Source: Bdellovibrio reynosensis
Lineage (GTDB): Bacteria; Bdellovibrionota; Bdellovibrionia; Bdellovibrionales; Bdellovibrionaceae
Assembly: GCF_022814725.1 (NCBI RefSeq)
Contig: NZ_CP093442.1
Span: 1,798,001-1,862,000, forward strand
Length of the DNA: 64,000 nucleotides
Reading direction: 5' to 3'
In this document: in pieces, positions 40,187-44,619 of the stretch
Layout of the letters: every line of letters begins with the position of its first letter
How positions within the stretch are numbered: position 1 is the stretch's first letter
Made by a program: the position numbers and the translations under genes
The notes under the pieces: generated by a model
What the model saw: only the letters and a program-made list of their open reading frames with translations
Database searches by the model: none
Told to the model about the DNA's origin: nothing

Positions 40187-41092
40187 ATGAATACAAGAAT
40201 TGGAATTTCCGGTTGGGTTTATCCTCCTTGGCGTGGGATTTTTTATCCTGAAGATCTTAATCAAAAAAAGGAACTGCACTATGCTTCACGGCAAGTGCAA
40301 AGCATAGAAATCAACGGCACTTTTTATTCTTCACAGTGGCCGAATTCGTTTAAGCATTGGTATTCCGAGACACCTGATGACTTTTGTTTTTCAGTCAAAG
40401 GACCACGTTACATTACCCATATACGCCGTTTGAAAGAAGTCGAAATTCCATTAGCTAATTTCTTTGCTACGGGTGTTCTTTATCTAGATGAAAAATTAGA
40501 GGTCTTTCTTTGGCAGTTCCCGCCGAACTTTCTATTCGACGAAGAACGGCTTGAAAACTTTTTTAAGATGCTTCCTAGAAGTTTCAAAGAGGCGGCGAAG
40601 TTTTCAAAGAAAGCGGATCGTCACCCAATTGAATACCCCAAACATATTGCTTCAGCCAACCGGCCATTAAGACATGCCATCGAGATACGTCATCATAGTT
40701 TTGAAAATCCTGATTTTATAAAGTTGCTACGAAAATACGACATCGCTTTGGTCTTTGCTGATACGGCAGGCACTTGGCCCTATATGGAAGATATCACAAG
40801 TGACTTCCTATATCTGCGACTGCACGGACCGGAGGAACTTTATAAGAGTGGCTATGATGATCCAACTTTAAGATGGTGGGCAGATCGTATTAAGACGTGG
40901 ACTGAAGGTCGTCAGCCTAAGGATGCTTTGACGATTATCGATGAAAAACCTGAAGTGAAGACACGTAAAGCTTATATTTACTTTGATAATGACATCAAAG
41001 TTCGCGCGCCATTTGATGCGCAAACTTTGATGAAGTTTTTAAAATCTAAAACTAAAGAGACTTTTTCATCTCAGTCAGAGCTGTCGTTGTAG
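40187..41092 (+). CDS. DUF72 (YecE-like) family protein
   Basis: 301 aa. RIGISGWVYPPWRGIFYPED at the N-terminus, SIEINGTFYSSQWPNSFKHW, FSVKGPRYITHIRRLK, FLWQFPPNF, HAIEIRHHSF, FADTAGTWPY and YLRLHGPEELYKSGYDD are the conserved DUF72 blocks of a TIM-barrel-like cytosolic protein of unknown activity. No clear ribosome site upstream. The last 41 bp overlap the end of the convergent thioredoxin-TPR gene. Confidence 0.92.
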   Translation: MNTRIGISGWVYPPWRGIFYPEDLNQKKELHYASRQVQSIEINGTFYSSQWPNSFKHWYSETPDDFCFSVKGPRYITHIRRLKEVEIPLANFFATGVLYLDEKLEVFLWQFPPNFLFDEERLENFFKMLPRSFKEAAKFSKKADRHPIEYPKHIASANRPLRHAIEIRHHSFENPDFIKLLRKYDIALVFADTAGTWPYMEDITSDFLYLRLHGPEELYKSGYDDPTLRWWADRIKTWTEGRQPKDALTIIDEKPEVKTRKAYIYFDNDIKVRAPFDAQTLMKFLKSKTKETFSSQSELSL

Positions 41093-42713
41093 CTTTATAT
41101 TTTTCTAATTTTGCTTCCGGCAGCGACAGCGCTTGGTCGATCGATGCTTTGGCTTCGTCCTTTAGTTTTAGATTCTTTTGAATTTCTGCTAAATTCTTCA
41201 GGTTCATGAATTTTAAGTCTGAACCTAGCTCTACAGCTTTTTTAGCTTCTGGCAGCGCCTTCGTGAAATCTTTTTGGCGCACATAGTACGCTGACAACTT
41301 CATATGGTAAACGTAGGTGTCAGGATAGGCCGTGACTAACTTTTGCAACCACTCCCCTTCTTCTTTCGCTAAGCCTGCTTTTCTGAAATAAGGAAGTCCC
41401 GCTAAGATTTCTCCCGGTCGGTCGACTGATAAATTCTTTTTTTGCAGGCTTTGCTGTAATTGCGCTTTCACAGCATCAGCAAGCTTTTCATTTTGGGCAG
41501 CTGTCGACGAGGTGTGTAGGGTCGCTAGAATCTCTTCGTGCTCAAATGGTGCTAAGTCAGAGACTTTCCATTCTGCAAAGAGCTTTTTGGTCTTTTCTTC
41601 AGACAGGGCAAAGCCAGATAAAAGCTCTAAGTTTTTTTGAAGTTCTGCCTTTAATTCTGCGGGGATTTTCTTTTTATCTTCGTAAAGCCCTGCCCAATCA
41701 TTACGTGCAGTGATCGCTGTGTACGATTCTGGCTGCTTCTGAATCCACTTCTTTAAGATGGCGATGTAGGCGTCGCGATTTTTTTGATCTTTAAGATCTT
41801 TGTCCGCTGCTAAGCCCATTTCGCTATAAGCATAGAAGTGATTCATCTCGCCAACTTTTGCATACCACTTCACTGCAGATTCTAAGTCCAGGCGATTAAA
41901 GGCTTGCTCTGCCATGAAAGTCATCGCAGCTTTGTCCCCTGCTTCAGCTTTTTTCTGAACATCGGCTAAGGAAGTTAGCTTTTTCGAAAGCACAGATTTC
42001 AATTCTGCGACAAGCGCAGGTGCTGGTTTAAAATCAAGAATGCGATAAAGCTCTTCACCCTTTTCATTTAAGATTAAAAGTGTCGGCAAAGCGCGAATCG
42101 CGTATTTTTCACCGAATTCCTTATTCGTTTGCATGTCCGCATTTAGCGCCAACTTCACAAGTTTCTTAGAAGCCTTCTTAAATTCCGCAGTACCAAACAC
42201 TTCAGTTTCTAAACGAACACAGGCCGGGCACCAAGGGGCACCAAAATCGACAAGCACTAATTTCTTTTCTTTAGACGCTTTCAACAAAGCAGCCTCAAGA
42301 TTGTTTTCAATGAAACCATGGCTATTCACATGAACTTTTGATGAAACAGGGAGTTCTTTGCGAACCGCTTTTAAAGGTTTATCACCCACAAGACCTGCCT
42401 CAGATCGGTAGGCAAACTTATGCTCTTCACAAACAGTCTTTTTATCATCACAGACGTAAAAAGAAATCTCATAGGATTTTCCTGCCACCGAAGAAATATC
42501 AAAAACCATTTTCTGTTCTTCTTTGGTAGACGGAGAAATCTCTTTCCCATTCGCCATCAACGCAGCTGGAGCTTCTTTATTAAAATGAAATCCCGAAGCA
42601 ATCGTCGCAGTCCACTTGTTATCTTTAACAGCAACTTGAACTTTGCCATCAGTAAGACGCGCAAAACATGCTAACGAAAAAAATAAGGCAAAAATAGAAA
42701 TCAAAATTTTCAT
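41052..42713 (-). CDS. Exported thioredoxin-domain protein with TPR-like C-terminus
   Basis: 553 aa from ATG 42711-42713 (TAGGAGTGGG upstream; the longer frame to 42800 lacks a signal). Signal peptide MKILISIFALFFSLACFA. N-terminal beta domain (about 20-130), then a thioredoxin domain with active site APWCPACVRLE and cis-Pro ALPTLLIL (DsbD-gamma/TlpA style), and a long helical region with TPR-like repeats at the end (YHMKLSAYYVRQKDFTKALP). Likely a periplasmic thiol reductase with a protein-binding tail. It has no DsbD-type membrane domain, so its electron donor is unknown. Confidence 0.82.
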   Translation of the reverse strand: MKILISIFALFFSLACFARLTDGKVQVAVKDNKWTATIASGFHFNKEAPAALMANGKEISPSTKEEQKMVFDISSVAGKSYEISFYVCDDKKTVCEEHKFAYRSEAGLVGDKPLKAVRKELPVSSKVHVNSHGFIENNLEAALLKASKEKKLVLVDFGAPWCPACVRLETEVFGTAEFKKASKKLVKLALNADMQTNKEFGEKYAIRALPTLLILNEKGEELYRILDFKPAPALVAELKSVLSKKLTSLADVQKKAEAGDKAAMTFMAEQAFNRLDLESAVKWYAKVGEMNHFYAYSEMGLAADKDLKDQKNRDAYIAILKKWIQKQPESYTAITARNDWAGLYEDKKKIPAELKAELQKNLELLSGFALSEEKTKKLFAEWKVSDLAPFEHEEILATLHTSSTAAQNEKLADAVKAQLQQSLQKKNLSVDRPGEILAGLPYFRKAGLAKEEGEWLQKLVTAYPDTYVYHMKLSAYYVRQKDFTKALPEAKKAVELGSDLKFMNLKNLAEIQKNLKLKDEAKASIDQALSLPEAKLEKYKATTTALTEMKKSL

Positions 42714-43155
42714 ATTCCCACTCCTAAAAACATTGAAACCAACTGTACCAGCGAGCCTTCGACACTCAACAAAAAACATCGATTTTTCGCTACAGTCCAT
42801 TTTTTATTTCTCCTACGTCGCATCAACGAGATTGGATTTTAGAGTAGATCTATGGTGCTTATCCCGCAGCGAGGCTTTGCCGGCGCATGGATGCGCGACA
42901 AAAATAGCAGGATGCTGTTTTTGCGCGTCAGCCCCGCAGGGGTTGAGGGCAGGAGCCCTCAACAACCGCAGCTTTGCTGCGGCGGCAACTGAGCCACGAT
43001 GGCGTCCTCGCGTAGGCTAAGCACCATAGATCTACTCTAAAATCCAATCCCCGTTCGAAGCCACGTCTCAGAGGAGGAATAAAAATCCGAGGCCGTTTCA
43101 GTGCTTGCCAATTTACTTCACAATGTCGTTCTTTTAGACACCCGGGGTCCTTCAG
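42714..43155. other. 442-bp intergenic region between divergent genes
   Basis: Apart from the 218-bp palindrome at 42831-43048, this region holds short A/T-rich flanks next to the thioredoxin gene and a G/C-mixed stretch (43049-43155) upstream of the transglycosylase gene. No tRNA or small gene was seen. Frames that cross it (for example 42643-43020) are by-products of the palindrome. Confidence 0.6.
42831..43048. repeat. 218-bp palindromic element with perfect 31-bp arms and nested hairpins
   Basis: Left arm 42831-42861 (attggattttagagtagatc...) and right arm 43018-43048 are exact reverse complements over 31 bp. Between them are gcgcat/atgcgc (42883-42896), cccc/gggg (42932-42942), GTTGAGGGC-AGGA-GCCCTCAAC (42942-42963) and CCGCAGC-TTT-GCTGCGG (42966-42982). 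No target-site duplication is obvious. It could be a structured RNA, a miniature transposable element or a large bidirectional terminator, but it lies between divergent genes, where a terminator is not expected. Confidence 0.85.
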
Positions 43156-44619
43156 ATGGAATGGATGGATCTTGAAGGGTCTTTTTCTAGCATGTCCCTT
43201 GCTATGTATGCGGGTATGGATAACAAACAAAATACATCAGCATTAAGTCGTTTTGTCTCAAAAAGAAGCACTCGTGGGTTTTTGGGCTCTTTGGCTCTTT
43301 TAACTCTTATGGTGGGGCTTTTTAACTCAGCAAGCTTTCCGGTTGTTGTAGCAAAAATCCAGAAGATTCAAAAGATTATCTTAGACGGCGTAGTCTTTTC
43401 TAAAGACCCAGAGATCGTCTATAACCGCGATGAAATCTTAAGTGACTACGAAAACCGTATTTCAGAAGAATTCACGATCCCAGCGGGATTACGTGATCGC
43501 GCTGGCTTCTGGTTTGACATTTATACTCGTTATGATTCCATGAAAAAGGTTGTTCATCACGTTGAATATCCTTGGATTGTTTTTCAAGTAGTTGATATTT
43601 CAGACATCATCAATAGCCCTACTCCAAAAGCTCGTTGGATGAGAAATCTGAAAGCCGATGATTTTGTTTCTAATGAAGTGCAAAGCATCCGTGAAGCATT
43701 AAAAGAAATGGCTCGCACGGGTCGCGCGGAAAACGAACTGCAAGAGTCTTTGGCTACGGCTTTGGAACCTCTTAAAGGCAGCCTTAAAGAAAAAGCTCAA
43801 GCCGCAGCTAAGAACGTGCGCGTGCAAACAGGCCAAAAAAACTTCTTTGCTGAAGGTTTAGAAGTAAGTCCAATTTATTTAAGCGGCATGGAAGAAATCT
43901 TCCGTGAACACAAACTTCCAATCGAATTAACTCGCTTGCCGTTCGTTGAAAGCAGCTTTAACCGTCACGCCGTTAGTAAAGTGGGTGCTTCAGGTATTTG
44001 GCAATTCATGGATTACACAGGTAAGAGCTTCATGATCGTGAATGATCATATTGACGAGCGCAACTCGCCATTTAAAGCGACTGTGGCTGCTGCTAAACTT
44101 TTAAAAGAAAATCACATGATCCTTAAGCGTTCATGGCCTTTAGCTATCACGGCGTGGAACCACGGCCCAGGCGGTATGCGTAAAGCTATGAAAGGTGCTG
44201 AGAGCGAAGATTTAGCTCATATCATCAATAACTACAATTCGACGACTTTTGATTTTGCGTCTTCAAATTTTTACTGTGAATTCTTAGGCGCTTTGTACGC
44301 GCAAATGTACCATGAGCAAATTTATAAAGGCTTAGAGTACGAAAAAACTTTGGATCTTCACAAAGTAAAATTAGCTAGAGCTATTTCGGCAAAAGAACTT
44401 CTTCGTCGCAGCAAGCTTGCCCATGAAGAATTCATTTTGTTCAATCCAGACTTGAAAAAGGCCGTTGATCGCAATGCTAGCATCCCGTCAGGATTCACAT
44501 TCATCGTGGATAATAAGGCGATGGCTGAATTAAAAAGCCTGATCACTAAAGACATCCGCCCGCTTGATGGAACGAAAGTTTCTCAAGTTGATCGCGAAGA
44601 TAACTTAAGCCAAAACTAA
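43156..44619 (+). CDS. MltD-like lytic transglycosylase
   Basis: 487 aa in the longest frame; the start is uncertain because in-frame ATGs also occur at 43165, 43192, 43204 and 43216 and no ribosome site stands out. A hydrophobic anchor (GFLGSLALLTLMVGLFNSAS), a charged helical region, and an SLT domain with catalytic Glu in LPFVESSFNRHAVSKVGASG (E265 in this numbering), IWQFMDYTG, and AITAWNHGPGGM. C-terminal segment resembles a LysM-type or peptidoglycan-binding tail (LLRRSKLAHEEFILFNPDLK). It cleaves glycan strands, in the predator's own wall or prey murein. Element F follows 48 bp after the stop. Confidence 0.88.
   Translation: MEWMDLEGSFSSMSLAMYAGMDNKQNTSALSRFVSKRSTRGFLGSLALLTLMVGLFNSASFPVVVAKIQKIQKIILDGVVFSKDPEIVYNRDEILSDYENRISEEFTIPAGLRDRAGFWFDIYTRYDSMKKVVHHVEYPWIVFQVVDISDIINSPTPKARWMRNLKADDFVSNEVQSIREALKEMARTGRAENELQESLATALEPLKGSLKEKAQAAAKNVRVQTGQKNFFAEGLEVSPIYLSGMEEIFREHKLPIELTRLPFVESSFNRHAVSKVGASGIWQFMDYTGKSFMIVNDHIDERNSPFKATVAAAKLLKENHMILKRSWPLAITAWNHGPGGMRKAMKGAESEDLAHIINNYNSTTFDFASSNFYCEFLGALYAQMYHEQIYKGLEYEKTLDLHKVKLARAISAKELLRRSKLAHEEFILFNPDLKKAVDRNASIPSGFTFIVDNKAMAELKSLITKDIRPLDGTKVSQVDREDNLSQN

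Follow-up and report, generated by a model that had tools for sequence, protein, structure and literature searches.

The DNA analysed here, a 64,000-nucleotide stretch of the Bdellovibrio reynosensis genome (the window), contains a member of a family of folded repeat elements that is apparently undescribed: no Rfam family or published description was found, and the window locus matches none of 4227 Rfam models up to an E value of 1. The copies share an internal core of about 70 nucleotides, whereas the long paired arms that enclose it are private to each copy. A whole-element search of the window genome gives 24 matches, nearly all limited to the interior, and the core is repeated about 20 times. 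The 31-bp arm of the window copy, by which the first-pass annotation had proposed to look for further copies, occurs only here, once per strand; allowing up to 3 mismatches brings up no other site in the genome. An arm search alone would therefore suggest a single copy, since the repeated part is the core.

The family is widespread in the genus. Counts made with a covariance model of the core range from 0 to 30 copies in each of 24 Bdellovibrio genomes. In an order-wide search, which scored the best 30 candidates per genome, 22 of the 24 have at least 2 to 28 copies, and a deeper search of five genomes gives 9 to 30 copies each. No copies were found by the core model in G003, an assembly of about 550 contigs, or in G004. 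The element is thus not the single copy, unconserved in relatives, that the first-pass annotation had allowed for. Beyond the genus, the model finds one to six copies in four genomes from other genera of the same order, and those of these copies that were read also have long private arms. An exact core pattern searched against a public genome collection hits mostly unrelated GC-rich genomes, consistent with chance; the same pattern is absent from viral contigs, and a viral origin was rejected. In G000, 17 of the 18 copies of a BLAST-derived set lie within C1:330162-1840875 (0.33-1.84 Mb of 3.58 Mb), a clustering in about half of the chromosome with a binomial p of ~1e-4, tested after the pattern was seen.

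In the window copy, the exact 31-bp inverted repeats described earlier (42831-42861 and 43018-43048) are confirmed, and the ungapped inverted repeat reaches 42830-42864 and 43015-43049 (35 nt, 97%). On the + strand, the copy-specific left arm (42830-42861), an exact inverted repeat of 43018-43049, is the 5' strand of a long stem, P1, and the equally copy-specific right arm (43018-43049) is its 3' strand. Core alignment and consensus fold place the 5' part of the conserved core at 42862-42897 (+), with a junction strand, the 5' strand of stem P2 and hairpin P3 (GCGC-ATGGAT-GCGC). The 3' part, at 42965-43010 (+), comprises hairpin P4 (42966-42982), the 3' strand of P2 and hairpin P5 (GCC-ACGAT-GGC, 42993-43003). 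A conserved outer end, CCCGTTCGAAGC, follows at 43050-43061 (+); its opposite strand reads GCTTCGAACGGG, beside an arm start resembling ATTTGG. The covariance-model match of the window core spans 42861-43019 (48.1 bits, E 1.9e-11). A 231-nt stretch folds with an energy of -138.9 kcal/mol on the + strand and -137.4 on the - strand, whereas shuffles average about -77 (z = -13.1 and -14.0, respectively; 0 of 200 shuffles as stable). Both hairpins named in the first-pass annotation are present, GTTGAGGGC-AGGA-GCCCTCAAC at 42942-42963 and CCGCAGC-TTT-GCTGCGG at 42966-42982, and its view that this is not a simple terminator holds for what is a discrete, dispersed element.

Within the family, the window copy is unusual in two respects. 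The element lies, as had been noted, upstream of both neighbours, a thioredoxin-domain/TPR protein gene (41052-42710, -) and an SLT transglycosylase-domain protein gene (43156-44619, +), which diverge (domains from Pfam); the family, however, normally sits just past the 3' end of a gene. Secondly, the segment 42898-42964 (+) belongs to another repeat family, REP2, nested within the window core and missing from most core copies, so that the 'G/C-rich core' described earlier is a composite. In the window, REP2 consists of AGGA-loop hairpins at 42899-42923 and 42942-42963 and a CCCC-GCA-GGGG hairpin at 42932-42942. Six further sites in the window genome have REP2 but no core, and REP2 lies within the core in the window copy and four fetched copies (L002, L003, L004 (417086) and L091). 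In the window and at L012, L014, L015, L016, L021 and L023, REP2 shows two AGGA-loop hairpins, with stems that vary. The AGGA loops presumably resemble CsrA-binding hairpins; the idea of the core as a CsrA decoy was dropped, as CsrA is present in 24 of 24 genus genomes and its occurrence is uninformative. A short string like CAGGCACCTTT recurs near repeats at L012, L014, L015, L016 and L026, and is possibly a third small repeat family.

Across the family, the consensus fold of the core is a three-way junction (P2, P3, P4) plus hairpin P5, with C(NNGAN)G hairpin loops in P3 and P5. Two-sided changes in 15 of 25 core pairs give the covariation of a structured RNA family. In a 100-copy alignment, information content is 1.5-1.93 bits in many core columns and less than 0.35 bit in most arm columns, and it reaches about 1.5 bits per column in the outer motif gcGagGGaTTTg. 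Most copies have arms of about 30-35 bp that are near-perfect reverse complements of one another while varying in sequence from copy to copy; a few have decayed or one-sided arms. Within copies, 93.8% of 3198 arm pairs are Watson-Crick by local alignment, which favours matched stretches, and in fixed register pairing is 82% within copies versus 38% across copies. Arms of non-orthologous copies have a mean similarity score of 6.7, close to the 5.8 for shuffles. The arms are not random, as GGCTT occurs in 33 of 103 versus 4.6 expected.

The arm mismatches are strongly asymmetric, which argues for one folding strand. In G012 and G022 there are 173 G.A and 50 G.U mismatches (223) on the element + strand, which is the window + strand, against 5 and 7 (12) of the types equivalent to G.A and G.U on the - strand. 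In a 110-copy set, the + strand shows 74 G.A and 70 G.U (144) versus 11 and 36 (47) for the - strand equivalents. These counts include orthologous copies, so that the events are not independent. The asymmetry points to the window + strand as the folding strand, as RNA or single-stranded DNA (ssDNA), and the conserved loops and junction look like sites of single-strand recognition.

Comparison of orthologous copies reveals how the arms change. In 34 orthologous copy pairs, 747 arm pairs are unchanged, 175 have changed on both sides and are still paired, and 99 have changed on one side. The flanks of these copies diverge mostly by a few to fifteen per cent, several being poorly aligned, and in some of the pairs one whole element may have replaced another. 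Two-sided arm change is common between orthologous copies, by template switching or by compensatory selection, which could be the source of part or all of it. Only one arm distinguishes the copy at G018 C1:1143718 from its orthologue, and a search of 24 genomes, with up to 3 mismatches allowed, gave no donor for the changed arm. In three species, at L082 (G002), L142 (G023) and L069/L375 (G006), orthologous copies have arms that are identical or nearly so, and these may be used as slow-evolving controls.

Whole elements are also exchanged, gained or lost. Both arms have changed at 4 of 12 loci compared between G001 and G018 (identity 0.51-0.74), and at these four loci the core differs too. The element at C2/212539 is a different one, its core ranking 7 among G018 copies and its arm at the non-orthologous background; at another of these loci the two elements are clearly of one lineage. 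Hypermutation of the arms alone was rejected, because the cores differ too and the C2/212539 element is no closer than unrelated copies, which implies that replacement also occurs. The 3' end of groEL carries an element in G001 and G018, and none in G009 (groEL query match 97%); in ten other genomes inspected there (including G009 and G000), no element lies within about 420 nt downstream. Derivation of the arms from the target flank was considered and not seen at the groEL empty site. The first-pass annotation had suggested looking for an empty site in related strains, and one clean case was found for another family copy, that at G001 C1:120018. Here G018 lacks a 235-bp insertion that adjoins a terminator-like hairpin and has AAAATA (or TA) repeated at its ends, in this one clean case. 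A second empty-site candidate holds an 11-nt remnant. Between L279 (G001 C1:150000-169900) and L103 (G018), the element is present only in G018, and L279 has an outer remnant resembling a right arm beside about 1.8 kb of other DNA.

Our preferred reading, to which we give about even odds, is that the family is non-autonomous and mobile, that it is recognised through the fold of one single strand, and that its arms are kept paired by template switching. In its favour are the repeated, genus-wide core with two-sided changes, the private but paired arms and their coupled change, the mismatch asymmetry, the preferred position and orientation past gene ends, and the gain and loss of copies between close species. 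Copies would move or exchange via a single-stranded RNA or ssDNA intermediate, and a putative host enzyme would read the core and the outer ends of the folded strand. Insertion would be targeted to terminators and gene ends, where harm is small. The arms would need only to pair, which would let their sequence drift, and template switching between them during replication would copy a change across and restore pairing. Template-switch (quasi-palindrome) mutation is known to homogenise inverted repeats and predicts multi-base changes copied between arms, as in the element (PMC8794818, PMC8604942); it has been described as a mutation process in stems, whereas here it would act on many private stems of one family. 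No mobilising enzyme was found, and the window genome gave no reverse transcriptase (RVT_1) hit. Conservation of the core beyond the genus is also expected from a host function; this, and the finding of just one clean empty site with repeated ends, count against the mobile reading. We hold more tentatively, and with less than even confidence, the combined claim that identity resides in the folded core while the stems are disposable, and that the private stems stay near-perfect by arm-to-arm copying, the element being mobile or domesticated.

Two known systems offer partial parallels to the proposed mobile element. Integron attC sites work in the form of a single folded strand, and one of the two strands is preferred, as is proposed for the element; like the element, they keep their structure while sequence varies, and lie 3' of genes in fixed orientation (PMC2727003). 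Unlike attC sites, the element conserves its apex and junction rather than basal boxes, and its copies are scattered without a cassette array. The basal R and L boxes of attC (RYYYAAC/GTTRRRY) were not seen by eye in the outer motif of the 100-copy alignment. Group IIC introns insert just past a terminator hairpin in fixed orientation, and in this they resemble the element; the element differs in being about 220 nt long, with no reverse transcriptase hit in the window genome and no Rfam match.

The copies have a preferred genomic setting. Their right-arm side usually has the end of a gene that runs antisense to the element + strand; such a gene ending downstream was found for 79 of 109 copies with a crude gene finder. 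The distances from stop codon to core on this side form clusters at 54-80 and 111-158 nt, and a terminator often intervenes in the latter group. Close pairs of copies have the arrangement (-)(+) in 18 of 18 cases, a few of them being orthologues of one another. The main rival reading, held at clearly less than even odds, is that the element is a cis-acting host RNA within 3' untranslated or convergent read-through RNA, the core binding a protein and the stem stabilising or processing the RNA, with turnover by gene conversion and recombination between strains instead of transposition. This would fit the compensatory changes in core structure genus-wide and in four other genera, and the many copies that directly follow a stop codon with no terminator between. 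It would also fit the repeated use of the same genes, such as an elongation factor G-like gene that adjoins the element in G000, G005, G008 and G020. Against it stand the presence or absence of copies between close species, with 0-30 per genome, and the lack of a sigma-70-like promoter: none was detected beyond shuffle level on either side of the copies, nor in the window region. The latter result likewise leaves unsupported the earlier suggestion of a structured regulatory RNA as an independent gene.

Published transcript data provide one further case for a cis-acting RNA. We take G006 to be B. bacteriovorus HD100, because its c-di-GMP-I riboswitch falls within the published merRNA coordinates (PMC3627812); nine copies of the element were found in it. 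In HD100, APsRNA6 is an attack-phase transcript at 1,338,787-1,339,441 on the + strand (PMC3627812). In G006 it runs across one full element, carrying the minus strand of that element, and has its end within a second, truncated one; upstream of the full element it also contains an ORF of 89 codons whose product is likely a membrane protein (L371, G006 C1:1338000-1340500). The location of a copy within a transcript downstream of an ORF is consistent with a cis-acting role, but this only documented transcript carries the strand that the mismatches disfavour and runs through the element. A small protein similar to the product of the 89-codon ORF adjoins a copy in G000 at 1283556.

The first-pass annotation had named a miniature inverted-repeat element (MITE) among its possibilities and noted a resemblance to one, and part of this stands, since the element is discrete, dispersed, multicopy and found in relatives. 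Bacterial MITEs such as RUP, NEMIS and ERIC are similarly non-coding, dispersed and gene-adjacent, with a length of 70-300 bp and inverted terminal arms (PMC3733652). A classical MITE would derive by deletion from an insertion sequence, and a transposase acting in trans would bind its terminal inverted repeats; the size, inverted arms and dispersal agree with this, as does, at one insertion, a hexamer or TA that may be repeated. Its main prediction fails, however: apart from the weak GGCTT motif, the arms are not common to the copies and so are not shared terminal repeats of the MITE type. Unlike those of MITEs (PMC3733652), the arms are private and change in pairs, and what the copies have in common is the folded core inside them; no parent insertion sequence came to notice. 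We therefore consider a classical MITE very improbable. Slightly more improbable still is a double-stranded DNA cruciform or chromosome-organising site, for instance between convergent genes. Perfect palindromes between genes and the clustering of 17 of 18 copies in G000 would suit such a site, but a cruciform extrudes both strands alike, and the symmetric structure proposed earlier fails to explain mismatches that favour one strand or conserved loops and a junction suggestive of single-strand recognition.

REP, BIME and REPIN sequences associated with RAYT (Y1) transposases are, like the element, palindromic, intergenic and sometimes arranged in inverted pairs (PMC2817692, PMC3116915), and RAYT-like genes are present in 21 of 24 genus genomes. 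Mobilisation by RAYT is nonetheless the least probable explanation, and a very unlikely one: the element exceeds 200 nt with a three-way-junction core and a long variable stem, compared with the 20-40 bp palindromic unit of a REP; its copy number is not tied to that of Y1/RAYT (rho 0.25, p 0.25); 14 and 6 copies are present in two genomes that are 99% complete and have no PF01797 hit; and among 11 RAYT-region loci, matches occur only in a 16-kb G005 region, about 2-6 kb from the gene.

Our analysis thus adds to a predatory genus an apparently undescribed family of folded elements, at least one copy of which lies within an attack-phase transcript known from published work. It is an open question how a long stem can keep its pairing as its sequence changes, given that single mutations should break it. 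The family provides scores of such stems, and as many of them belong to orthologous pairs, changes on one or both sides can be counted; in one copy, a change is present in one arm but not in the other. If the stems are indeed disposable, each would be an evolution experiment of its own on a perfectly paired stem, with scores of them in a single family.
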